Source of the DNA: a virus
Reading direction: 5' to 3' (one strand)
Virus record (IMG/VR): IMGVR_UViG_3300042312_000252
Coordinates: 1-27,883 of that record
DNA: 27,883 bases
The notes beneath the pieces are model-generated. The model searched no databases. It was not told where the DNA came from and was given only the letters and a program-made list of their open reading frames with translations. The position numbers and the translations under genes were made by a program. The number at the start of each line of letters is the position of its first letter. The first letter of the stretch is position 1. Below are positions 399 through 23,847 of the stretch, piece after piece.

Positions 399-625
399 CA
401 CGCCCACAGTCTGCGCAGTCCGCCAGCCGGTTTCACGCGGTCCTCGGGATTGGCGCGGCCTCGCTCGATCATGCGCTGAACGTCCTCTGCCGTCGCCAGC
501 GCGAAGTGCGTCATGCCGGCTTCGTCCACGACGTGCAGCGGGTAGTAGACCTGATCCGCTGCCGGGTGCCGTCTGCGATTGCCGACGATTTCCATGCGGC
601 ACAGGACGCTCACGATGCGGGTCAT
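386..625 (-). CDS. small hypothetical lysis-cassette protein
   Basis: The 79-residue protein is read from the ATG at 625, whose sequence overlaps the endolysin stop (TGATG). A GGAGG seven bases upstream supports this start over the TTG at 628. The protein looks soluble, with a central segment (YYPLHVVDEAGMTHFALATAEDVQRMIERG) that suggests a small alpha/beta fold, and a tryptophan-rich C-terminus (RRLWAWWFR). The function is unknown. Its position between endolysin and holin-like genes suggests co-expression with lysis functions but does not prove a role. Confidence 0.65.
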   Translation of the reverse strand: MTRIVSVLCRMEIVGNRRRHPAADQVYYPLHVVDEAGMTHFALATAEDVQRMIERGRANPEDRVKPAGGLRRLWAWWFR

Positions 626-1116
626 CAAGGGCCTCCGATGCTTGCTCTCAGCACGTCCGAGACGCGCAGGGTCCAGCCTCGCCCAAAGTCTCCGAAGGTT
701 TTCAGACCTGCCAGGAAATCCAGCCGGGCCGACCCGTAGCGAATCAGGGCATGCGTTGGGTTTGAGGCGGCGACAGCTTCCATTGTGAGCGGTCCGATTT
801 GCCCGTCAACAGCGACGCCTACAGCTGCTTGCAGCCACCGCGACGCCCGGCCCACGCCAGAATTCACTGCGCTGTCAAAGTGCATGAGCCGCAGCGCAGG
901 CGGCAGCGCGTCACAGCCTGCAACCCGCCAATACTGGTCTTGGTAGATCGTCTGCACCAGCGACATGGGGATGTCGCGCATGCTGCCCTGATAGCCGCTC
1001 GCGCGCGCGACGCGCACGGTAATCCCGTAGTTGGTCTCCCCGCCAGGGTCTGACGGGTGATTCACATAGCCGCCCTCGTGGCGCAGGACGTGCTTCAGGG
1101 CTTCCCGGAAGTTCAC
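625..1116 (-). CDS. endolysin, GH108-type muramidase
   Basis: This 163-residue enzyme should cut the glycan backbone of peptidoglycan at the end of infection. Its N-terminus carries the glycosyl hydrolase 108 signature HEGGY..HPSDPGGETNYGIT, with the probable catalytic Glu at residue 14. The C-terminal part (VDGQIGPLTMEAV) matches the peptidoglycan-binding domain usually paired with this family. The length is normal. No signal peptide or membrane anchor is visible, so release through a holin is expected. Translation starts at a GTG at 1116 that overlaps the stop of the 58-codon gene upstream (GTGA), which implies coupling. Confidence 0.92.
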   Translation of the reverse strand: MNFREALKHVLRHEGGYVNHPSDPGGETNYGITVRVARASGYQGSMRDIPMSLVQTIYQDQYWRVAGCDALPPALRLMHFDSAVNSGVGRASRWLQAAVGVAVDGQIGPLTMEAVAASNPTHALIRYGSARLDFLAGLKTFGDFGRGWTLRVSDVLRASIGGP

Positions 1117-1289
1117 AGCTTGTCGTCTCGGCAGTCGCGAACAGCGGGCTCGCCAGCCTCCAGCGCGTCGAGCGCGGCGCGGACGGCGGCGGCGACCTGT
1201 TGGGCAAGGTCTTCGTTCGGCGAGCGGTTCGCCTGACGCGGGCGCACGGGCGGGACGCTGATAATGATGATGATTGCGGCAGTGCTCAT
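1113..1289 (-). CDS. 58-residue small protein upstream of the endolysin
   Basis: An ATG at 1289 overlaps the stop of the gene before it (ATGA), and the frame's TGA overlaps the endolysin GTG. Both ends therefore fit the coupled chain precisely, which is the main evidence that it is real. The N-terminus is hydrophobic (STAAIIIIISVPPV, with a run of five isoleucines). The rest is a charged, Ala-rich helix ending DCRDDKL. The short hydrophobic start could be a membrane anchor, possibly a spanin-type or holin-accessory peptide. No family is recognised. Confidence 0.6.
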   Translation of the reverse strand: MSTAAIIIIISVPPVRPRQANRSPNEDLAQQVAAAVRAALDALEAGEPAVRDCRDDKL

Positions 1290-1510
1290 TGCTCGCTGTC
1301 CTTCGGTTTGAGGTGCGGGGCTTGCATGTAGATCACACTGAGATGCGCCTGCAGAACGTCCATTTTCTCACGCAGCGCGCGAGTTTCCGACTTCGCGTCC
1401 CAGGCCGATGCGCAGGCCAGTATCGCCGCCAGCGCACAGACGAACAGCACGGGGCCACCGCCGGCGAACGAAACGTTTACTGACTGCGTGCCGAGGATGT
1501 CGCGGATCAT
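1286..1510 (-). CDS. single-span membrane protein with C-terminal coiled coil
   Basis: Read from the ATG at 1510 the protein has 74 residues: a short amphipathic start (MIRDILGTQSVNVSFAGGG), a membrane segment at about residues 21-37, then a helical charged stretch (AKSETRALREKMDVLQAHL) likely to coil. The frame is also open to an ATG at 1588, which would give 100 residues, but that would overlap the upstream gene by 64 bases. Neither start has a strong Shine-Dalgarno sequence. The topology and position fit an inner-membrane lysis accessory such as an antiholin, holin or inner spanin. The choice among these is inference. Confidence 0.6.
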   Translation of the reverse strand: MIRDILGTQSVNVSFAGGGPVLFVCALAAILACASAWDAKSETRALREKMDVLQAHLSVIYMQAPHLKPKDSEQ

Positions 1511-1524
1511 TTTTCGCGTGTCCG

Positions 1525-1824
1525 TCAGTGTTTCCGCTTCAGGTCTGCCGGGGTGATCTTGTTCCCGTTCGATAGCTGGATTAGACATAGCGTGACCATT
1601 TGGAAGTCTGATTCCAGTTTATCATTCATGGCTCGAAGCTCTTCGGAAAGCGCCGTGATCGCGGCGGTTACGGTCCCATTTGTTCCCGACTTCTCCAGCG
1701 CTTCGACCCGAGGCCGAAGGCTAGCGTGCGCCTCGCGCAAGTCGGACAGGTGACGGTGCAACCATCCGCTGTACCCAAGCAGCGCAACCACCAGAACCCA
1801 CGGCAAACCAGCGCTCGGATCCAT
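1525..1824 (-). CDS. membrane-anchored coiled-coil protein, spanin-like topology
   Basis: The 99-residue protein has an N-terminal membrane segment (residues 7-20, GLPWVLVVALLGYSGW), then about 60 residues of heptad-like helix (LSDLREAHASLRPRVEALEKS and ALSEELRAMNDKLESDF). This N-in, periplasmic coiled-coil layout resembles inner-membrane spanins (Rz), although it is shorter than lambda Rz. No lipoprotein partner (Rz1-type lipobox) was found inside or next to it. The ATG at 1824 is chosen because GGGAG precedes it and the HTH gene stops three bases earlier. The frame runs on upstream, but there it only shadows the HTH gene. Confidence 0.65.
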   Translation of the reverse strand: MDPSAGLPWVLVVALLGYSGWLHRHLSDLREAHASLRPRVEALEKSGTNGTVTAAITALSEELRAMNDKLESDFQMVTLCLIQLSNGNKITPADLKRKH

Positions 1825-1826
1825 CG

Positions 1827-2069
1827 TCAGCTCCCGTTGATCAGTGTCCGTTCGGTCACTTCCGCGCCAGTCTCGGCGGCCAGTGCCAGCAGGCGCCGAT
1901 GATACCGCGATGGGACGTTGCCTGCACCGTTGTCGGACTGCTGCCAGCGCAGGACGGTGGACGGGTGGACCTTGAGGCGGCGGGCGATGCCACGGATCGA
2001 GAGGCCCGCGCGCGCGAACGCTGCGATGGTCTCGACGGCGGGTGTCTTGGGTGCTGGTTTCGTGGTCAT
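1827..2069 (-). CDS. small helix-turn-helix DNA-binding regulator
   Basis: The 80-residue protein carries a clear helix-turn-helix at about residues 22-44 (GLSIRGIARRLKVHPSTVLRW), preceded by a helix and followed by a short tail. There is no dimerisation or protease domain, so it is Cro-sized rather than CI-sized. It is the first gene of the leftward unit and faces the exonuclease gene across a promoter/operator region, the usual place for a phage switch regulator. Its -10 box ends only six bases before the ATG, so the mRNA should be leaderless or nearly so, like lambda cI from PRM. It is the obvious candidate to bind GTTGC-N7-GCAAC, but that link is inference. Confidence 0.8.
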   Translation of the reverse strand: MTTKPAPKTPAVETIAAFARAGLSIRGIARRLKVHPSTVLRWQQSDNGAGNVPSRYHRRLLALAAETGAEVTERTLINGS

Positions 2070-2197: not shown

Positions 2198-3202
2198 ATG
2201 AACCGCGAATTCATCCTCCCCCGCGACGAACAGCACTGGCACGCACTGCGCGCCCAGGATCTGACCAGCACGGATATTGCCGCACTGCTCGGCCTGTCGC
2301 CCTACGCGACCGCGATCGACGTGTGGCACAACAAGCGCGACGGGGTGGCGGCATCGATTGCCGACAATGAGCGGATGAAGTGGGGGCGGCGGCTGGAATC
2401 CGTCGTGGCCTACGGGATCGGCGAAGATCAGAGCTGGCAGGTCAACCCGTTTGAGGAATACGGCAGGCTGCCCGAGCATCGCGTCGGATCGTCTTTCGAT
2501 TTCGTCGTGCACGATCCTGCAGGCGGCTTCATCCTAGAAATCAAAACCGTAGACGCCCTAGCCTACCGACAAGGCTGGACCGTCGAAGATGACTTCATCG
2601 AAGCCCCCGCACACATCGAGCTGCAGCTACAGCACCAGCTTCTGGTGTCCGGACTGCGCGTCGGTTACATCGGCGCCTTGATCGGCGGAAACCGCGTCGA
2701 GCTGCTGCGGCGCGAGGCTGACGATGCGGTTCATGCGGCGATCCTGCAGCGGGCAGGCCAGTTCTGGCAGTCGATCGAAGCCGGCACGCCGCCGCCCGTC
2801 GTCACTGCCGACGATGCGCGCGCCTACATCCGCCGCCAAGATCATGCGGAGCCGGGCAGGCTGCTGGACGTGCGCGGCGGCCATAGCGTTGGCAGGCTGA
2901 TCGAGCAGTATCAGGACGCCAAGCGTGCTGCCGCCGCTGCTACCGACCTTGCCGATATCCTCAAGGCAGAACTGCTAGCCCGCATCGGCGACGCCGAGCG
3001 CGTCATGTGGGACGGCGGCACGATTTCGTGCGGCTACACCGCCGGCAGTGCCGGCACCACCATCACCGCCGACATGATCGGCACCACCATCACCGCCGAC
3101 ATGATCGGCACCACCATCACCGCCGACATGATCGGCACCACCATCGGGGCGCGCGCTGGCTATAGGCAGTTCCGAGTCAACAGCAAGAGGAAAACCCCGT
3201 GA
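2198..3202 (+). CDS. YqaJ/lambda-type exonuclease
   Basis: The 334-residue protein matches the YqaJ viral recombinase (lambda exonuclease) family. These enzymes resect double-stranded DNA 5' to 3' to give a single strand for an annealing protein. The N-terminus has the family pattern W-x-x-L-R...S-T-D-I-A-A-L-L-G-L-S-P-Y. Candidate active-site residues are Glu67 (RRLES), Asp101 (SSFDF) and Glu114/Lys116 (LEIK), as in PD-(D/E)XK nucleases. The ATG at 2198 follows the early promoter; the frame runs further upstream, but only over the control region. The RecT gene lies two genes downstream. Oddly, the C-terminus contains three tandem copies of GTTITADMI plus a partial fourth. Confidence 0.9.
   Translation: MNREFILPRDEQHWHALRAQDLTSTDIAALLGLSPYATAIDVWHNKRDGVAASIADNERMKWGRRLESVVAYGIGEDQSWQVNPFEEYGRLPEHRVGSSFDFVVHDPAGGFILEIKTVDALAYRQGWTVEDDFIEAPAHIELQLQHQLLVSGLRVGYIGALIGGNRVELLRREADDAVHAAILQRAGQFWQSIEAGTPPPVVTADDARAYIRRQDHAEPGRLLDVRGGHSVGRLIEQYQDAKRAAAAATDLADILKAELLARIGDAERVMWDGGTISCGYTAGSAGTTITADMIGTTITADMIGTTITADMIGTTIGARAGYRQFRVNSKRKTP
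3053..3147 (+). repeat. 27-base tandem repeat, 3 copies plus 14 bases, inside the exonuclease
   Basis: Identical 27-base units start at 3053, 3080 and 3107, followed by the first 12 bases of a fourth (ggcaccaccatc) from 3134. The unit is a multiple of three and encodes GTTITADMI, so copy-number change keeps the frame. The copies are identical even at third codon positions, which points to recent slippage or recombination. Confidence 0.95.
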
Positions 3203-3438: not shown

Positions 3439-4300
3439 GCTGACCACTACCACGCAGAGCCCCGTCGAACAGGTTTGCCGCACGATCGCCAAGCCCGAGT
3501 TCCGCGAGCGTCTGTCCCAGGCCCTGCCGCCCGGCGTCGACGTTGACCGCTTTCAGCGCGTTGTGCTGACGGCGATCCAACAGAACCCGCAGATTGCCAG
3601 CGGGGACCGCGCGGCGCTGTACAACGCAGCCATTCGCGCTGCTGCCGATGGCCTGCTGCCGGACGGCCGCGAAGGCGCCTTCGTCATCATGAAGGGCGCC
3701 CCGCAGTGGATGCCGATGGTCGCCGGCATCATCAAGCGCCTTGCCACGGCCGGAATCACGATTGACGCGCAGATTGTCCATGAGGCCGACCACTTCGAGC
3801 AGACGCTGGGCGATGACGCCAGCATTGTCCACCGCGCTCCGAAGCTCGGCACGCCGCGCGGCGAACCGCTGGGCGCCTACGCAATTGCCAAGCTTCCGAA
3901 CGGCATGGTCATGCGCGAGGTCATGGACCGCGACCAAATCGAACAGGTGCGCAAGGCTAGCCGATCGGCGAACGCTGGCCCCTGGCAACAGTGGTGGACA
4001 GAAATGGCGCGAAAGACCGTCATTCGACGGCTGGCGAAGCGCCTGCCGATCCTTGACGCCAGCGTGGCCGAGTCCCTGCAGCGCGATGACGACTTGGCGG
4101 ACTACGCGGCTGGCAACGCGACGCCGCAGCACACGCAACCGGCAGCCGAGGTCGTGGCCGCGCCCGTCAAGCGCCGACCGGCAGTCCTCGCCGCCGTGGT
4201 ATCGACCGTGGCCCAGGCTGACCCGGAGCCGCCGCCGTTCGATGCTGATACGGGCGAGGTTCTGCCGCCTGCTGTCGCTCCGGGCGAGGATGATTTCTGA
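3431..4300 (+). CDS. recT: RecT-family single-strand annealing protein
   Basis: The 289-residue protein has the RecT family hallmarks: an N-terminal helical region, N-P-Q-I...G-D-R-A-A-L-Y-N-A-A-I-R-A-A-A-D-G-L-L-P-D-G-R-E-G-A, then W-M-P-M-V-A-G-I-I-K-R and a central beta core. It binds the strand exposed by the exonuclease and anneals it to homologous DNA, for recombination or genome circularisation. The length is typical. The C-terminus is Pro/Ala-rich and ends in an acidic DDF, reminiscent of SSB-type tails that recruit host proteins. Its ATG lies inside the end of the previous gene and its stop overlaps the next start (TGATG). Confidence 0.92.
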   Translation: MSELTTTTQSPVEQVCRTIAKPEFRERLSQALPPGVDVDRFQRVVLTAIQQNPQIASGDRAALYNAAIRAAADGLLPDGREGAFVIMKGAPQWMPMVAGIIKRLATAGITIDAQIVHEADHFEQTLGDDASIVHRAPKLGTPRGEPLGAYAIAKLPNGMVMREVMDRDQIEQVRKASRSANAGPWQQWWTEMARKTVIRRLAKRLPILDASVAESLQRDDDLADYAAGNATPQHTQPAAEVVAAPVKRRPAVLAAVVSTVAQADPEPPPFDADTGEVLPPAVAPGEDDF

Positions 4301-4608
4301 TGGCCCGCATCTACGCGTCACAGATTTCCGAGCTGGTCGCGGATCTGCAGGCCCTGCAGTCTATGTCCCCGGCAGACGTGACGGCCGAGACGCTGACGCC
4401 GGAGGAAATCGCGATTGTCTTCGAGTCGCGCCGGAAGCGGTTGCTGCTGCGGCTCGAAAATCGCGGGCTAACCATCGCGGCCGATCCTGAGACGCGCGTC
4501 ACAGAATCGGAAGGTCAGGCGGAATGGGTGTTGCAAACGCTGCAACAAGCGCGTATAGTTCAACCCATGCACCGGCGCGGTGCCGGACGGGGAGAGCGAG
4601 ATGATTAA
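4300..4608 (+). CDS. small helical protein downstream of RecT, unknown
   Basis: The ATG at 4300 overlaps the RecT stop. The 102-residue product is predicted to be mostly helical, with charged stretches (TPEEIAIVFESRRKRLLLRLENRGL). The 3' end carries an embedded promoter and operator at 4530-4559, and its last eight bases overlap the next start. Its final 13 codons, from the in-frame ATG at 4567, lie just after the predicted transcription start, so they may be read separately as a short leader peptide. No family is recognised. Confidence 0.7.
   Translation: MARIYASQISELVADLQALQSMSPADVTAETLTPEEIAIVFESRRKRLLLRLENRGLTIAADPETRVTESEGQAEWVLQTLQQARIVQPMHRRGAGRGERDD
4530..4559 (+). promoter_or_regulatory. 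internal early promoter with operator copy 3
   Basis: The -35 box TTGCAA (4531-4536), 17 bases and the -10 box TATAGT (4554-4559) make the best sigma70 match in the window. The perfect inverted repeat GTTGC-N7-GCAAC (4530-4546) overlaps it exactly as at 2142. Transcription should start near 4566 and feed the gene at 4601 and the hairpin-rich region after it. Confidence 0.75.
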
Positions 4609-7422: not shown

Positions 7423-7424
7423 CG

Positions 7425-7453
7425 AAAAACCCCGCACCGTTGCCAGTGCGGGG
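7425..7453 (-). terminator. leftward terminator ending the late block
   Basis: The perfect 8-pair stem CCCCGCAC (7430-7437) with GTGCGGGG (7446-7453) has an 8-base loop and is followed on the minus strand by TTTTT (7429-7425). This is the clearest intrinsic terminator in the window. On the plus strand it lacks a T-run. Confidence 0.85.
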
Positions 7454-17953: not shown

Positions 17954-18066
17954 TTCGTGAACCTCAAGAGCGGCCGGCAGACAGGGCGCGCGACACGGCT
18001 AACGCCGCGCGTTGGTCCCTGCTGCCAGCCATAGCCGTTGGTGAGCCGTTCTGTGCGTCAAAGGGT

Positions 18067-18096
18067 GTTGCGTCATGGACAACAGCGTGCTAGGCT
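18067..18096 (+). promoter_or_regulatory. plus-strand promoter-like site with imperfect operator, inside the late block
   Basis: In the 164-base gap between the chaperone and tail-tube genes, TTGCGT (18068-18073), 17 bases and TAGGCT (18091-18096) form a weak promoter pointing against the late genes. GTTGC-N7-ACAAC (18067-18083) differs from the motif in one base. Transcripts would be antisense to the tail-tube gene. No gene is otherwise seen in 17954-18117, only short hairpins. Confidence 0.4.
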
Positions 18097-18117
18097 GTGC
18101 CCATGTTCAGAACCGCA

Positions 18118-18627
18118 TCAGTCCTGCGTCGGGCTCGGCAGCGTCCAAACGGCCGGGCCGGAACGCTGAATTGTCAGCGTGCCGCGCACGATTTCGTTCG
18201 TGGCGATGTCGAAAGTCACGTCGGCGACGTAGCCCAGGAACTCGGCAGTGGTCGCGCCGGGCGAGATCAATCGCGAGTCGCTGTCTACCGCACTCGGGGA
18301 GCCCGTCTGATCCGACAAAACGATCATCCAGCTGATCAGCGTGCCGGACTCGCGCAGGTCAAGCAGCGCCTGATGCGAGAACGAGCCCGGAATGAAGTTG
18401 AACGGCGCCGACAGCTCGGTCGGATCGAGCATGCCGCCCTGTTTCTCCATTTCGATGGAGTCAAGGCAAGTCGTGTCGATCTGGCCGCGAGCGCCGCCAA
18501 GGCCGTTGATGCCAGTCGGGCAGGCCAGCTTGTAGATGACGACGCCATCCGGATCGGACGAAGACGCTGCATCGGGCGACGCGAAGAACAGGCGCGTGCC
18601 CTGGGTTTTCACTACACCTTGAGTCAT
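18118..18627 (-). CDS. major tail tube protein
   Basis: The 169-residue protein (MTQGVVKTQGTRLFFASPD...) is the right size and place for a siphophage tail tube subunit, lying between the tail-terminator-like protein and the chaperones. It has the tube-like pieces GQIDTTCLDS, NFIPGSFSHQALLDLRESG and FLGYVADVTFDIATNEIVRGTLTIQRSG. Rings of this protein would stack around the tape measure. AGAGG precedes the ATG at 18627. A short Ser run (ASSSD) lies near residue 21. It stands apart from its neighbours by 57 and 164 bases, which fits a highly expressed gene. Confidence 0.88.
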   Translation of the reverse strand: MTQGVVKTQGTRLFFASPDAASSSDPDGVVIYKLACPTGINGLGGARGQIDTTCLDSIEMEKQGGMLDPTELSAPFNFIPGSFSHQALLDLRESGTLISWMIVLSDQTGSPSAVDSDSRLISPGATTAEFLGYVADVTFDIATNEIVRGTLTIQRSGPAVWTLPSPTQD

Positions 18628-18684
18628 AACACATACCTCTCGCTTGTGCGGCCGAAACCGCGTGAATCCGGCACGCGCCGGAAA

Positions 18685-19101
18685 TTAGGGGCCGGAACTC
18701 GAACTGCTGCCGTCAGGCGCAGCGCGGTCAAGCCAATAGTCAAACTGCAGCATGATGCGGTAACGCTGCGTCTCGAAGTCGCGCCCGTTGGGTCCGAACC
18801 CGGTCATGTGGGCAAACGGCTCCAATGCCGCGCGCACGGCTACAGCAAGATCCTCGATCTGCGCCGCGCCAGTGCCGGTATTGTCGGACCAGCAGTCGAT
18901 TTGCACAACACATGCATCGATCTTGGGCAGCTCGGACAGCGTGTTCTGAGGCGTGCCGCTGATGACAGACCATGTGATGTATGGCGCCTGCGTCGCCTGC
19001 GGTGCCGCGCCGTGCCGGTAGATCCGCGCCGGATTGGTGCCGACCAGGGCCGTCACGTTGGTGGCAGCGCGCAGGATCTGGAAAATCGGAGGCAGCATCA
19101 T
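18685..19101 (-). CDS. DUF3168-like tail terminator / tail component
   Basis: The 138-residue protein starts at the ATG at 19101 (ATGATG), overlapping the stop of the gp10-like gene. The sequence PPIFQILRAATNVTALVGTNPARIYRHG..APQATQAPYITWSVISG..P..L..L..ID..VVQIDCWSD matches the DUF3168 pattern of small tail components that cap the tail tube at the head side. The C-terminus ends in a Ser run (DGSSSSSGP), one of several in this region. The assignment by family pattern and gene order is good, the exact role less certain. Confidence 0.82.
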   Translation of the reverse strand: MMLPPIFQILRAATNVTALVGTNPARIYRHGAAPQATQAPYITWSVISGTPQNTLSELPKIDACVVQIDCWSDNTGTGAAQIEDLAVAVRAALEPFAHMTGFGPNGRDFETQRYRIMLQFDYWLDRAAPDGSSSSSGP

Positions 19102-19625
19102 TGCCCGACACTCCGGTATCGGTCGATCAGCTGTTGAACGCGTTTCTCGAACTCGGCGCGGAACGTCTCGGCGGCGGCTGCCTTCGTGTTCTCGAACGCC
19201 GGGCGCATGAACGGCATAGGGGCGCGTTTCTCCGTGCCGAACTCCAGCATCATGGCGATGTCGTTCGCGCGGTTGTATTTCGTGCCCGCGCGCTCGATCG
19301 GGTAGCGGATTTTGTGGTCGACATACACCCGGACCAGCTCGGCATGCTGCGAGCGCCAAAACCGGCGATTCGGGCGGCGAACCTTGATGGCACGGCGCAG
19401 CGTACCCGTAGACAGGTCGCGCCCGTTGACGTTGGGAATCGCGACGATGGCGTCGACGTTGGCGCGCGTGGCCCGCAGGATCACGTTTGCGCCCTGCCTG
19501 AGAGCGGCCTGCAGCGGGTTCGCGTTCTTGACCTTGATGCCGGTCGCGCTGATCTGCTGGCGCAGCGTATCCAGCGCCTCTAGGGTTTCGCGCAGGCCGG
19601 TGACGGTGACGGTTTCAACTGCCAT
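19098..19625 (-). CDS. HK97 gp10-like tail completion protein
   Basis: The 175-residue protein has the gp10 family pattern: GLRETLEALDTLR near the start, a basic middle with ALRQGANVILRATRANVDAI and GTLRRAIKVRR, then YNRANDIAMMLEFGTEKRAPMPFMRPAFE, where the E-F-G-T...P-x-P-F-x-R-P-A motif is diagnostic. It is thought to act at the neck or tail end during joining. It overlaps the upstream connector by 11 bases and the downstream gene by ATGA. The length is slightly above average. Confidence 0.9.
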   Translation of the reverse strand: MAVETVTVTGLRETLEALDTLRQQISATGIKVKNANPLQAALRQGANVILRATRANVDAIVAIPNVNGRDLSTGTLRRAIKVRRPNRRFWRSQHAELVRVYVDHKIRYPIERAGTKYNRANDIAMMLEFGTEKRAPMPFMRPAFENTKAAAAETFRAEFEKRVQQLIDRYRSVGQ

Positions 19626-19989
19626 CGGTCACCCCCTCCCTGCAGCGCAGGCGGTACTCCCTGCGGTCGGTGGCGTCGGCCTCAATCGACAGGATGTCGA
19701 ACGGCTGGCCCTGCCACAGGATACGCATGGTCGGCAGCAGGCCGGGAAACCAACGCATTTGAATCCTTGCCGTCGTCTCTGCCTGCTTCGCGTTGGCTGC
19801 GTCAAACTCGCGCCCAGGCCCGCGCAGCACTTCGGCCGGCACAGCGGACAGCGGAACGCCGCTGCTGCTGGAGCCGCCGCCGATCTCCACCGTCGCCCAG
19901 GTGTAGGAAATATCGCCCGTCTCCGAGTCCTGCGACGCGACCTGTTCTTGGACCTCGACGCGATGGCGGTAGCGCTGCGCCTGCATCAC
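19615..19989 (-). CDS. head-tail adaptor / stopper, SPP1 gp16-like
   Basis: The 124-residue protein starts with the family pattern RYRHRVEVQEQVASQDSETGDISYTWATV and continues with PAEVLRGPGREFDAANAKQAETTARIQMRWFPGLLPTMRILWQGQPFDILSIEAD, matching head-closure proteins that stop DNA leaking after packaging. The start is the ATG at 19989, which overlaps the upstream stop. An inserted loop GGGSSSSG is unusual for the family and resembles Ser runs in neighbouring genes. Confidence 0.9.
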   Translation of the reverse strand: MMQAQRYRHRVEVQEQVASQDSETGDISYTWATVEIGGGSSSSGVPLSAVPAEVLRGPGREFDAANAKQAETTARIQMRWFPGLLPTMRILWQGQPFDILSIEADATDRREYRLRCREGVTDGS

Positions 19990-20339
19990 ACGCCAAGCTC
20001 CGTGCGGTACGGCATCAGCAGCGTTTCAGCAGCGGCGCGCATGCGCGGGATGTCGTCAGGCTTGGTGCCTTCGTACTTGGACTGAACCAAGTAATACACC
20101 GCGATCCGCACAGACGGCGCAATCGGGTCTTCACTGCTCGGCACGTCCTCGGGAATCTCGCTGCTGCTGGAATCGTACAGCGGCGGGTAATCGAGCGGCA
20201 GCGTCGCAAGCTGCGTGCGGTTCAAGAACCGCTTGGCTTCGTCCTCAGCCGCGTCAATCAACGTCTGCAGCAGCACGTCATCATCCGTGTGGATGATGCG
20301 CAGGAACGCCCGGATTTCGTCGACGGTCACGGCTGACAC
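19986..20339 (-). CDS. gp6-like head-tail connector
   Basis: The 117-residue protein matches the gp6 family: VTVDEIRAFLRIIHTDDDVLLQTLIDAAEDEAKRFLNR, then a helical end (APSVRIAVYYLVQSKYEGTKPDDIPRMRAAAETLLMPYR). It forms the ring between portal and stopper. A loop DSSSSEIPEDVPSSED is Ser-rich and acidic. Its start lies 13 bases inside the end of the glycosyltransferase gene, so the modification cassette is tightly joined to the connectors. Confidence 0.9.
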   Translation of the reverse strand: MSAVTVDEIRAFLRIIHTDDDVLLQTLIDAAEDEAKRFLNRTQLATLPLDYPPLYDSSSSEIPEDVPSSEDPIAPSVRIAVYYLVQSKYEGTKPDDIPRMRAAAETLLMPYRTELGV

Positions 20340-21031
20340 TGCGCGGCCTCCTGCAGGTACAGGTCGGCATCATTGCCGATCCACTCGCGCAGTATACGCC
20401 CGTCGGGGTCATACGTACCGGCGAAGTCGGCCGAATGGCCCATGCCGATTCCGCCCCGGCCCGGCAAGCCCTTGATGCCGCAGACGCGGCTGCCTGCGAA
20501 CAGGTATCGGCTGCGGTGTTTGCGCCACAGCTCTAGGTCGATGAATTTCTGATTCCGCTCGCAGGACCAGCGAAACGTGTCGATCGCAGCGCCTCGCATG
20601 GCCGTGCTGCACAGGCTGGCGTGTTGCGTGTTGGTCAGCTGGCGAGCGCGACGCTGCGGGATGTTGTAGTACCGCGCCCGCCACTCGCCGACCAGCTCGG
20701 CATTCCCCAGAGCGGTATCAGCGATCCGCAGCCAGCTCGGCGCATACCAGTCATCGTCTTCGATGATGACCAGCCGCGCGTCAGCGTCGACTTCGCGCAG
20801 GCCCGCCAGCAGGTTCCGCGCCTGCGTGTTCTGCCCGGGCTGCCACTCCGGTAGCGGGCGGATAACCTCAAGCCACCAGCCCTCACGCTGGAACGTCACC
20901 GGCTGCGCCTCCGGGCCATCGTCAACAATGATCCAGTGCACCGGGCCGGCGTAGTCCTGCCGCAGCATCAAGCGTTCGCAGATTGCCCAGGCTTCGGGGC
21001 GGGCGCCGGTGGCGGTTAGGAGCGTCAGCAT
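20327..21031 (-). CDS. glycosyltransferase family 2-like protein
   Basis: The 234-residue protein has a GT-A glycosyltransferase layout: an N-terminal Rossmann-like strand (LTLLTATGARPEAW), DDG at residues 37-39 and the metal-binding motif EDDDW at 91-95 (VIIEDDDWYAPSWL). It is shorter than most GT2 enzymes and has no membrane segment. It should move a sugar from a nucleotide-sugar donor to an acceptor. Its place within the late operon, between capsid and connectors and beside a methyltransferase, suggests that it modifies virion proteins or a surface glycan. The target is not visible in the sequence. Confidence 0.8.
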   Translation of the reverse strand: MLTLLTATGARPEAWAICERLMLRQDYAGPVHWIIVDDGPEAQPVTFQREGWWLEVIRPLPEWQPGQNTQARNLLAGLREVDADARLVIIEDDDWYAPSWLRIADTALGNAELVGEWRARYYNIPQRRARQLTNTQHASLCSTAMRGAAIDTFRWSCERNQKFIDLELWRKHRSRYLFAGSRVCGIKGLPGRGGIGMGHSADFAGTYDPDGRILREWIGNDADLYLQEAAQCQP

Positions 21032-21594
21032 GGCCGCCGCCCCACCGCAAACACATGCACCGGAATCGCCCGACGCGCCAGCGGCCCGCCGCCGTGGTCG
21101 TCAAGCGCCACATGGATCTCGCCAGCGTTCGCCGTCTCGACGTCAACGAACCCGGCATCCTCAAGCAGCAGCCGCAAACCGGACTGCGTGTAGCGGTAGA
21201 AGTCGTCCGGGAACCCATGAATCGGGAACGCCGTCAGCGTCGTGACCACGATCCAGCCGCCCGGCGCGGTGACGCGGTACAGCTCCGGCAGCGCGAGCCA
21301 GGGGCGGGCGACGTGTTCCAGAACCTCGGAGCACAGGATTCCAGAAAACCGGCCTTCCCACTCGGGCGCAAGCGCATGAATGTCCGCGACTTTATCGACC
21401 CCGTGTCCAGATTGCATGTCGATGCCGGTCCACTTCCCGCGCGCGAGGTCGCGGTTCACGATCCACCACGCGCCGGGGTTCGTCATGCGGCTGCCGACCT
21501 CCAGCACGTCGGTGCCCAGCTTGTCGGCGTGCTGTTCGATCCAGGCGCGGACGCGGCCTCGGACGCTGGTTGCGGGCATTTTACGGGCGTTCAT
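21025..21594 (-). CDS. class I SAM-dependent methyltransferase
   Basis: The 189-residue protein shows the methyltransferase fold motifs: motif I DVLEVGSR at residues 29-36, an acidic residue at the end of strand 2 (TGIDMQS, Asp59), and SEVLEH at 89-94. A later strand (GGWIVVTTLTAFP) also fits. This type often methylates small molecules or sugars. No DNA methylase motif (DPPY or PCQ) is present. It overlaps the glycosyltransferase by seven bases and its ATG overlaps the upstream stop, so the two enzymes are probably made together and may act on the same substrate. Confidence 0.87.
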   Translation of the reverse strand: MNARKMPATSVRGRVRAWIEQHADKLGTDVLEVGSRMTNPGAWWIVNRDLARGKWTGIDMQSGHGVDKVADIHALAPEWEGRFSGILCSEVLEHVARPWLALPELYRVTAPGGWIVVTTLTAFPIHGFPDDFYRYTQSGLRLLLEDAGFVDVETANAGEIHVALDDHGGGPLARRAIPVHVFAVGRRPC

Positions 21595-21785
21595 GACTTG
21601 GAACTCAGCACGAGCTGCAGCGCTTCTTCTCGCGTAAATCCTTCCGCCAAGTATGCGTCGAACTTGAGACGGATCAACCTTGCGAGGATCTTGAAGCTCT
21701 CCCTAGTAGCTTCGCTCTCGCAGTTTTCCCGCATCGCCTGAACCATATCTTCAGGGGTTGAATTGTTGGCCGTTGTCTTGCGCAA
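21591..21785 (-). CDS. 64-residue helical protein of the modification cassette
   Basis: A TTG at 21785 follows GGAGAG with good spacing and gives 64 residues. An ATG at 21746 (51 residues) is the alternative but has a weaker ribosome site. The product is helical and charged (MVQAMRENCESEATRESFKILARLIRLKFDAYLAEGF). The DNA is noticeably less GC-rich than its surroundings. It overlaps the upstream gene by 35 bases and the methyltransferase by an ATGA. No family is recognised. Confidence 0.6.
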   Translation of the reverse strand: MRKTTANNSTPEDMVQAMRENCESEATRESFKILARLIRLKFDAYLAEGFTREEALQLVLSSKS

Positions 21786-22371
21786 GTTCGCTCTCCAGTT
21801 CGCCGCGCGGAAACGCCGTCAATGCGGTGTCGCGCGTGCAGTTGATGACTTCCACTCCGGCCACAGCGCGCGCCAGCTTGGCGAACTGTGCCGGCCACTT
21901 CGGCATGCTCCCGGCGTTGCCCAGGCCGCGCGGGTGATTCCCGTGCCAATGCACTTTGCCGCCCGGCCCGTTCTTGCAGTCATAGCCCAGCAGCATGATC
22001 CGCGCAGCGCCAGCGAAGGCGGCCAAGCTGACAGCCCCTGCGCCGCTGTTCCCGTAGGGCTCCCAGCCCCTGCCCATCGTACCGAGGCTGCGCACGCCGT
22101 GGCGCTTGACGTGCTGCGAGCTGCTGCACAGGTCGCCGCGAAACACGTCCCGGACTTCCTTGATGTGCAGCGCCCACCAAGGTTCATCCATCGCGAACAG
22201 GGCGTCGGCCCACGGGGCGAGGCGAAACGACGTGTTGACCGCTATGGCGCGGCGTTCTTCGGGGGACGGCCCCGACGCTTTCCACTCACGGACTCGCTCG
22301 CAGTCGTCTGCAGTGAGGCTTGGGCCGCTGGCGATGCAGACGACGGTAGCGCCTCGCCATCGGCCGTGCCA
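21751..22371 (-). CDS. MptE/DUF115-like protein, start unclear
   Basis: The frame contains VVCIASGPSLTADDCERVREW, then NTSFRLAPWADALFAMDEPWW, GNSGAGAVSLAAFAGAARIMLLGYDCKNG and EVINCTRDTALTAFPRGELE. This resembles the MptE/DUF115-like family, which has a Rossmann-type fold related to some sialyltransferase-like proteins, and is seen in phages near sugar-modifying genes. The frame has no ATG, GTG or TTG between a GTG at 22620 and the conserved region, so 22371 is only an approximate limit. The first 130 bases lie in another frame over the upstream gene. Possible explanations are a non-standard start, a -1 slip from the upstream gene, or a sequence error. The function is probably sugar- or nucleotide-related; the substrate is unknown. 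Confidence 0.65.
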   Translation of the reverse strand, partial: WHGRWRGATVVCIASGPSLTADDCERVREWKASGPSPEERRAIAVNTSFRLAPWADALFAMDEPWWALHIKEVRDVFRGDLCSSSQHVKRHGVRSLGTMGRGWEPYGNSGAGAVSLAAFAGAARIMLLGYDCKNGPGGKVHWHGNHPRGLGNAGSMPKWPAQFAKLARAVAGVEVINCTRDTALTAFPRGELESELAQDNGQQFNP

Positions 22372-22562
22372 GGGACTTCGGGAGTCACCGGATGCTGGCG
22401 GACCACCTTTGTACCGTAGGACGACGCGACGGGCGCGGCCGGGTTCACAAGGCCCATGCGGATCAATCGGCGCGCTTCCTCTTCGTCGACTTCCAGCACC
22501 TCGCCGGCTTTCAGCAAGCCAAGGCGCCCGTGCGGAAATGCTTTGATTGGGGTGATGTGCAT
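22242..22562 (-). CDS. small capsid-downstream protein with RGRPPK tail
   Basis: The 106-residue protein starts at the ATG at 22562 after AGGGAG. The N-terminus (MHITPIKAFPHGRLGLLKAGEVLEVDEEEARRLIRMGLV) looks like a compact beta/helix domain of a type common in small proteins coded near the capsid. The rest is low-complexity, ending in KRRGRPPKNAAP, an AT-hook-like basic motif. A small domain plus flexible basic tail suits a capsid-associated protein, but no family is assigned. The 3' part is read in two frames, because the MptE-like gene overlaps it. Confidence 0.7.
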   Translation of the reverse strand: MHITPIKAFPHGRLGLLKAGEVLEVDEEEARRLIRMGLVNPAAPVASSYGTKVVRQHPVTPEVPGTADGEALPSSASPAAQASLQTTASESVSGKRRGRPPKNAAP

Positions 22563-22584
22563 CTGAACTCCCTAGCCGTGGGGT

Positions 22585-22614
22585 GTTGCGTTCTTTGCAA
22601 CGTCCTGCTATGGT
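22585..22614 (+). promoter_or_regulatory. plus-strand promoter with perfect operator, pointing at the capsid gene
   Basis: GTTGC-N7-GCAAC (22585-22601) is a perfect copy of the operator. It overlaps TTGCGT (22586-22591), a 17-base spacer and TATGGT (22609-22614) on the plus strand. Transcription would start near 22620, run through the hairpin at 22653 and then antisense to the capsid gene. No convincing plus-strand gene follows. A matching minus-strand promoter for the 22562 gene was not clear. Confidence 0.55.
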
Positions 22615-22652
22615 TGCCACATGACCACACGGCAGCCATCACAGACGCAGCA

Positions 22653-22678
22653 GGGGGCAGGGCCGAAGCCCCGCCCCC
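22653..22678 (-). terminator. strong hairpin downstream of the capsid gene
   Basis: An 11-pair G/C-rich stem (22653-22663 with 22668-22678) has one mismatch that becomes a G-U pair on the minus strand, where the loop reads C(TTCG)G, a very stable tetraloop. It lies eight bases after the capsid stop. Neither side has a good T-run, so it may only attenuate or protect the capsid message. It would also shorten the opposing transcript from 22620. Confidence 0.5.
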
Positions 22679-22686
22679 TTGGTTCA

Positions 22687-23847
22687 TCAGGTCGTGGTGA
22701 ACTCGCCGCCGAGCATCGCGGCCGGGACGGTGACGCCCAAGCCCAGACGGACCTCGCCGAGGACGGTGACAAGGTTCGACGTGAAGTCGTTGTCCTCGTA
22801 ACCCATTTCGATCACGGTGCCCGAGCGGTTCCACACGCCGGTGGCTACGGCAGTCTGGCCGACCAGGAACGTGCCAGCAGCGATGCGCGGGGTGATGACG
22901 ACGCGGATGCCGAACGGGTTCAGGCCCGAAATCGTACCCGGCGCACCGTACAAGTACATCCCGTTCGAGCCGTTCTCACGCTCGATTTCCTGCGCGCCCC
23001 AATCGGCCGGGTTGACGTACACGGTGTCGGCGATGTAGCCGATGGCCCAAAGCTGGTACTTGGCCCGGTTGATCGCCTGAATCAGGTTGTCGCCCGAGGT
23101 CGGCGTGTAGACCGTGTAGTTGCCCGAATCCAGCAGGCCCGACAGGTTCGGCGACGTGCCGTTGCCGTTCATCAGCTGGTTGTCGACGGCGGAATCAACG
23201 CCGAAACGCAGGCGCGTCTCGATGTAGGACACGACAGCCGGCGAGTCGGCCAGCAGCTGCTTCGACACCTTCAACCAGTGCGCGACGGTCTCGATGACCA
23301 CATTGTACTTGTTGAACGTGATGGCCGACTGCGCCTTCTCCTGACCTTCGGTCTGGCCGCGCGCGTTGTTGGTGAACGACGCCTCACGCATCAGCGTGAC
23401 GGTATCGGTGCCCGTCGAAAACTGCGGCAGCGAGCGGTAGACGTTCAGCGGAAGGAACGCGCCAGGGACGACGCCGGGGATCTGGTCGAGCCACGTGGTC
23501 GTGGTGTTGTCGGCGAGAATCGTGTTCTTCAGTTCCACACGCGCACGGCTCGAACGGCCGCCGTCCTTGAACGCCTTGAACTCTTCCGACTTCACGAACT
23601 CTTCGACAGCCGAAACCGGCTTGCCCTTCGTGTCGATCGGCGCGGTCGACTTCTGCGCGATGTCGATAATCGCGGCGTTCATCTTGGCAAGCTCGCCCTT
23701 GAACTCCTCGGACAGCTTCTGAACGGCCGCCTTGGCTTCGTTCGACGCGGTGCCGGCGTCCTTGACCTGACCCTCGTACTTCTCGACAGCGGCCTCGACC
23801 GCCTTCATGTGCGCGTCAAGCGCGCCCTTCAACTCTACGGATTCCAT
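22687..23847 (-). CDS. HK97-family major capsid protein
   Basis: The 386-residue protein has the two-part layout of HK97 capsids: an N-terminal coiled coil of about 70-90 residues (delta domain, ELKGALDAHMKAVEAAVEKYEGQVKD...) that acts as internal scaffold and is removed by the protease, then the mature HK97 fold (GVVPGAFLPLNVYRSLPQF, VSKQLLADSPAVVSYIETRLRFGVDSAVDNQLMNG, NPADWGAQEIERE, GGEFTTT). The protease gene lies directly upstream. The calculated order and length are typical. Confidence 0.93.
   Translation of the reverse strand: MESVELKGALDAHMKAVEAAVEKYEGQVKDAGTASNEAKAAVQKLSEEFKGELAKMNAAIIDIAQKSTAPIDTKGKPVSAVEEFVKSEEFKAFKDGGRSSRARVELKNTILADNTTTTWLDQIPGVVPGAFLPLNVYRSLPQFSTGTDTVTLMREASFTNNARGQTEGQEKAQSAITFNKYNVVIETVAHWLKVSKQLLADSPAVVSYIETRLRFGVDSAVDNQLMNGNGTSPNLSGLLDSGNYTVYTPTSGDNLIQAINRAKYQLWAIGYIADTVYVNPADWGAQEIERENGSNGMYLYGAPGTISGLNPFGIRVVITPRIAAGTFLVGQTAVATGVWNRSGTVIEMGYEDNDFTSNLVTVLGEVRLGLGVTVPAAMLGGEFTTT

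Follow-up and report, generated by a model that had tools for sequence, protein, structure and literature searches.

Early-type promoter–operator units opposing the late genes behind the capsid and tail tube genes of an uncultured siphophage: a possible antisense brake

Gene organization of the window

The window analyzed here, meaning the whole stretch of DNA under study, is a 27,883-base record (IMGVR_UViG_3300042312_000252) of an uncultured phage, which is an HK97-type siphophage. The terminase, portal, protease, capsid, connector, tube, chaperone, and tape measure genes are encoded on the minus strand, and recE-like and recT-like genes on the plus strand. A gene for a helix-turn-helix (HTH) protein at positions 1827–2069 is divergent from the gene encoding a RecE-like YqaJ exonuclease (2198–3202, plus strand), within which four 27-bp tandem repeats (3037–3144) encode a repeated TITADMIGT peptide. 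On the minus strand, a strong terminator-like hairpin followed by TTTTT (7424–7450; z −4.83) likely marks the end of the late operon. Scans of the window for Rfam families and tRNA genes gave no match.

Two late genes are central to this analysis: the tail tube protein gene (18118–18627, minus strand; phrog_158) and the major capsid protein gene (22687–23847, minus strand; phrog_10). The sequence-only reading had placed two plus-strand promoters just behind them, in what it called the only large gaps of the late block. All of the flanking virion genes, including these two, are indeed on the minus strand and the promoters do lie behind them, directed against the late genes; there is, however, a further large gap of approximately 156 bp (21595–21750), which carries no such site.

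Architecture of the promoter–operator units

Four plus-strand copies of a single unit, GGGTGTTGC-N8-CAAC-N7-TA...T, are present in the window, and each contains −35 and −10 hexamers 17 bp apart, the former being TTGCAA or TTGCGT and the latter TACAGT, TATAGT, TAGGCT, or TATGGT. Unit U1 (2138–2171; TTGCAA-17-TACAGT) is located upstream of the recE-like gene, which is the first early gene downstream of it. Unit U2 (4526–4559; TTGCAA-17-TATAGT), the best-scoring promoter of the window, falls within the 3′ part of an open reading frame (ORF) at 4300–4608; the ATG found 7 nucleotides past its −10 hexamer is followed by only 13 open codons ahead of the next gene, at 4604. The remaining two units are in the late block, namely U3 (18063–18096), in which TTGCGT-N17-TAGGCT occupies 18068–18096, and U4 (22581–22614), in which TTGCGT-N17-TATGGT occupies 22586–22614, exactly where the sequence-only reading had located its promoters. 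Both carry an extended −10 element (TGC), and their predicted transcription starts, at about 18103 and 22621, are 15 nucleotides from the stop codon of the tube gene and 66 nucleotides from that of the capsid gene, respectively. The tube gene would thus be the target of the predicted antisense transcription from U3, and the capsid gene possibly that from U4.

The proposed linkage of both late promoters to an operator was also borne out, as each is situated within an operator-like palindrome, GTTGC-N7-(G/A)CAAC. The perfect palindrome GTTGC-N7-GCAAC begins at 2098, 2142, 4530, and 22585 (22585–22601 in U4); at 18067, in U3, one position of one half-site is changed, which leaves a half-mutated operator (GTTGC/ACAAC). 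Thus, five operator sites occur in 27.9 kb, two of them in the late block, and 4/5 form part of the longer unit. U3 and U4 contain every element that defines the early-promoter class of U1 and U2 (GGGTGTTGC-N8-CAAC, with −35 and −10 hexamers at 17 bp), and both place a promoter-like sequence beside a structural gene on the opposite strand.

Promoter likeness compared with chance

The pattern GGGTGTTGC-N8-CAAC has no copies in the record beyond these four and none in a reversed control; when a −10 hexamer was also required, the same four plus-strand units were recovered, with no minus-strand match. None of 2,000 simulated late blocks contained the full unit. When 55,686 positions were ranked by a simple sigma-70 score, without regard to the operator, U2 (4531) came first, U1 (2143) eighth, the promoter of the HTH gene ninth, U4 (22586) 11th, and U3 (18068) 82nd; U3, whose −35 and −10 hexamers each match at 3/6 positions, is clearly the weaker of the late units. 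Because the operator itself supplies TTG, a comparison restricted to the 152 TTGC positions of the late block is a fairer test, and here, at the fixed 17-bp offset, the −10 hexamer of U4 ranked first and that of U3 third, both with the extended TGC. The simulation and the ranking among TTGC positions led to the rejection of coincidental promoters and confirm what the sequence-only reading had observed, such that the identification of U3 and U4 as promoters is well supported. A promoter facing in the same direction as the late genes at the two late operators was rejected, since its scores are near zero.

Distribution among relatives and surroundings of the late units

The capsid relatives comprised six IMG/VR contigs (L005–L010) with capsid proteins 61–82% identical to that of the window; the capsid query had no relative among the genome contigs. 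The unit at 22581 is absent from all six. In the two closest contigs, L005 and L006, the order on the late strand after the capsid stop codon is hairpin, T-run, ribosome-binding site, and connector ATG. The window shares the hairpin (22652–22679, approximately 28 nucleotides), which is strong, lies behind the capsid stop codon, and separates the capsid gene from the U4 start; exactly between this hairpin and the ribosome-binding site, it contains about 73 extra bases (22573–22645) with U4, which occupy the place of the T-run. This hairpin might terminate a U4 antisense RNA ahead of the capsid gene. U3 is apparently missing from the closest tube relative (L011, 89% identical), although the evidence is weaker, consisting of a single short alignment: the contig stops 33 bases past the tube gene, and these bases align across the gap, with most of the sequence surrounding U3 (18045–18116) missing. 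Neither late unit is present in L009, which spans both gaps.

Wider searches gave a similar picture. No operator set was found in whole-record searches of ten further records, no such unit is present in the late gaps of the remaining loci, and no equivalent operator set was recognized among the dispersed palindromes of two relatives (G001 and G002). Scans of IMG/VR and the genome collection with the unit pattern yielded chance matches or nothing, and thus no other copy; two candidate carriers with a similar architecture (L189 and L177) were rejected because the adjacent genes are unrelated, and a third hit (L233) is a T4-like baseplate gene.

The absence of both late units from the relatives checked suggests that U3 and U4 are lineage-specific additions of roughly 55–75 bp each. 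The sequence-only reading had named loss of the sites in close relatives beforehand as refuting its proposal, and conservation is indeed lacking (0/6 at the capsid site and apparently 0/1 at the tube site). A function conserved across the relatives is therefore rejected, and, since the units are missing from relatives with the same gene order, the timing of late gene expression does not generally depend on them.

The stretch around U3 is bounded by an imperfect inverted repeat, GCCGTTCTG/CAGAACCGC, and that around U4 contains an inner inverted repeat, GCCGTGGGGT/ACCACACGGC. These repeats pair at 9/10 or 8/9 positions, a result expected by chance at 7% of random late positions and at about 0.5% for both units together; as boundaries of the late units, they are suggestive only. 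The same gaps hold other sequences elsewhere. In L011 (1250–1338), an array of four 22-bp tandem repeats of GGCCCCGTTAGTTACATGCGGG (97% matches) fills the gap behind the capsid hairpin; this gap, which is occupied by U4 in the window, seems to collect insertions. In L009 (9515–9625), a long hairpin with a stem of approximately 18 bp fills the tube–chaperone gap, where U3 is located in the window.

The HTH protein as a candidate regulator

The minus-strand gene at 1827–2069 encodes an 80-amino acid protein that matches Pfam HTH_38 (31.3 bits; cut-off 27) as well as HTH_23, and weakly phrog_664. Two of the five operators (2098 and 2142) are positioned between this gene and recE, directly upstream of the HTH gene, and for this reason its product is the natural candidate for the operator-binding regulator. 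The promoter and operator of the HTH gene itself span 2076–2114 on the minus strand, with a −35 hexamer TTGCAA (2104–2099), a 17-bp spacer, and a −10 hexamer TATGCT; the operator palindrome at 2098–2114 overlaps this promoter, and the ATG follows 6 nucleotides past the −10 hexamer, a leaderless geometry. The two operators occupy the usual place for autoregulation, and binding of the HTH protein to them is predicted from their position and palindromic form.

Searches for relatives of the HTH gene returned only eight short-segment matches in viral contigs (23–27 residues, 54–61% identity), none of them in phages. Small ORFs and a GH108 endolysin gene follow it on the same strand (625–2069, minus strand), an arrangement in which the regulator may be the first gene of a lysis operon instead of belonging to a lysogeny module of the classical type. 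Among the ORFs scanned, none was identified as an integrase or CI.

Possible roles of the late units

The best explanation overall, to which a probability of roughly 0.4 is assigned, is that U3 and U4 are additional repressor-controlled early promoters acting as an antisense brake on the late genes. In its most likely form, they would be working promoters of the early class, under control of the HTH regulator, that produce antisense RNA against the capsid and tube genes. This lineage would have gained U3 and U4 as early-promoter copies on the opposite strand, in the gaps behind the tube and capsid genes, and all four units of the class would share one regulator, for which the HTH protein is the candidate. 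While this regulator was absent or scarce, U1–U4 would fire together; U1 and U2 would drive the early genes, and U3 and U4 would direct RNA polymerase and antisense RNA toward the 3′ ends of the tube and capsid genes, thereby lowering their expression. Once the regulator had accumulated, or in a lysogen, all four operators would be occupied, and the early genes and the antisense units would be shut off together.

In favor of such a brake are the identical architecture of the four units, which is not expected by chance in the late block; the promoter scores, exact 17-bp spacing, and extended −10 of the two late copies, with no promoter in the opposite orientation; the two operators between the HTH gene and recE; the predicted starts 15 and 66 nucleotides from the tube and capsid stop codons; and the precedent of LUZ100. 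Against it are the absence of the units from relatives, the weakness of U3, whose operator is half-mutated, and the hairpin ahead of the capsid gene, which may terminate the U4 RNA. What stands of the antisense brake put forward in the sequence-only reading is that early-class, promoter-like, operator-linked sequences oppose the late genes beyond chance expectation; what does not stand is conservation within the group, and the absence from relatives weakens a general brake on late genes while leaving a lineage-specific one unrefuted. An elaborated version, in which the phage duplicated its own early promoter behind the capsid and tube genes such that one HTH regulator both shuts off the early operon and lifts the antisense brake, is unlikely; in it, the units would constitute a recently gained promoter–operator cassette, possibly bounded by inverted repeats. 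If the units do fire, early shut-off and late release would be coupled through a single operator family, with no dedicated late activator, and their absence from close relatives would illustrate how quickly such wiring can be gained through an insertion of tens of base pairs.

The alternative that fares best, although fairly unlikely, is that U3 and U4 are inert or near-neutral insertions, for example early-promoter copies left as the remnant of a moron, which have settled in tolerated gaps and exert no effect on the late genes. Their absence from relatives, the unrelated DNA found in the corresponding gaps elsewhere (the L011 array and the L009 hairpin), and the weak promoter and degraded operator of U3 are all consistent with this explanation; however, neutrality accounts poorly for two copies that are both antisense, both behind major structural genes, and both equipped with a −35, exact spacing, a −10, and an operator.

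It is improbable that the late sites serve as stoperator-like roadblocks, at which the regulator bound at 18067 and 22585 halts polymerase reading through on the late strand in the repressed state. Because the operator overlaps the −35, the promoter elements would simply come along with it, and operators scattered among late intergenic gaps, all in one orientation across the genome, resemble stoperators of the L5 type (PMC6550527); all four promoter units, moreover, share one strand. Nevertheless, a genome with stoperators has 20 to 30 of them, most of which are not associated with promoters, whereas only two sites are present in this late block, both retaining a −10 with an extended TG at the correct distance, and the operator is palindromic, with the sites facing against late transcription.

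Still less probable is a role in the structure of the late mRNA, in which the insertions would act as 3′ hairpins on the capsid and tube messages, with a stabilizing or attenuating effect, and promoter likeness would be secondary. On the late strand, the stretch around U3 forms a good fold (−29.6 kcal/mol, z −2.85), the same gaps in relatives hold strong hairpins, and inverted repeats flank both units, but the U4 unit by itself shows no unusual stability (z −0.3), and such a role does not account for the sequence, spacing, and orientation shared with U1 and U2.

Finally, an ATG lies exactly 6 nucleotides past each late −10, as at the promoter of the HTH gene, and these are two of only 4 among 220 plus-strand ATGs in the late block that open at least 344 codons, yet the expression of leaderless antisense proteins of 344 and 652 codons overlapping the tube and capsid genes is highly improbable, and the two ORFs were rejected as genes, since neither has a Pfam match and the frames, which are codon-aligned with the sense genes, are equally stop-free across the capsid gene in the promoterless relatives L005–L008 (open runs of 403, 391, and 508 codons in L005, L007, and L008, respectively). 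In a codon-aligned antisense frame, stops arise only from the rare sense codons TTA, CTA, and TCA, and the open frames are best explained as incidental to codon use.

Comparison with known systems

Phage antisense promoters that lower expression of the gene on the opposite strand, as proposed for U3 and U4, include P22 sar and lambda aQ; unlike the late units, neither is a copy of the early promoter, and both target regulators rather than capsid or tail genes. Closer in position is an antisense RNA detected by RNA sequencing directly downstream of the major capsid gene of the Pseudomonas phage LUZ100, and the same antisense regulation of structural proteins has been hypothesized for LIT1 and LUZ7 (PMC10134795). 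In these phages, as in the window, the antisense element lies in the structural region on the capsid side and is proposed to regulate structural proteins. LUZ100, however, is T7-like, its antisense RNA was seen directly, and the parts of that report drawn on here mention no repressor operator, whereas the window belongs to an HK97-type phage in which the promoters are predicted and tied to an early operator. The Salmonella prophage BTP1 produces STnc6030, a 786-nucleotide antisense RNA against the tailspike region that is expressed in the lysogen and mediates superinfection exclusion (PMC7067206). Like the predicted RNAs of U3 and U4, it is antisense to late structural genes, but it is made in the lysogen, whereas bound regulator would keep U3 and U4 silent.

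With respect to the operators, the stoperators of L5 and Bxb1 (cluster A mycobacteriophages) are 20 to 30 asymmetric, mostly promoterless sites (PMC6550527, PMC9283540) that, like the sites of the window, are dispersed outside the switch region in a uniform orientation. They are oriented with transcription, whereas the two late sites described here are palindromic, form full promoters, and are directed against transcription; in number, association with promoters, and orientation, the sites of the window thus differ from stoperators. The SPBRE elements of SPbeta, bound by MrpR, likewise represent a repeated operator dispersed in promoter regions (PMC10516654) and served by one repressor, for which there is only a candidate in the window; SPBRE promoters drive annotated genes, whereas U3 and U4 drive none.

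Antisense transcription in phage structural regions and dispersed regulator sites such as stoperators and SPBRE are thus already known. A limited search of the open-access literature found no description of a phage's own operator-controlled early promoter copied in antisense orientation behind the capsid and tube genes, and this arrangement is apparently new as a variation on known kinds. If the units fire, the unexplained antisense transcription that RNA sequencing has revealed on the capsid side in Pseudomonas phages would gain an example under regulatory control.

Genes between the head and tail regions

Between the head and tail genes, a block comprising sialyltransferase-like, methyltransferase, and glycosyltransferase-like genes (20327–22335) is kept in several relatives. 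The end of the connector ORF (22242–22562) overlaps the start of the sialyltransferase-like gene (phrog_4603) at 22242–22345, and the DNA of this overlap is conserved across L005–L009 and 88–93% identical to an unannotated stretch in Pseudomonas phages, an unusual degree of DNA-level conservation that is expected for dual coding.
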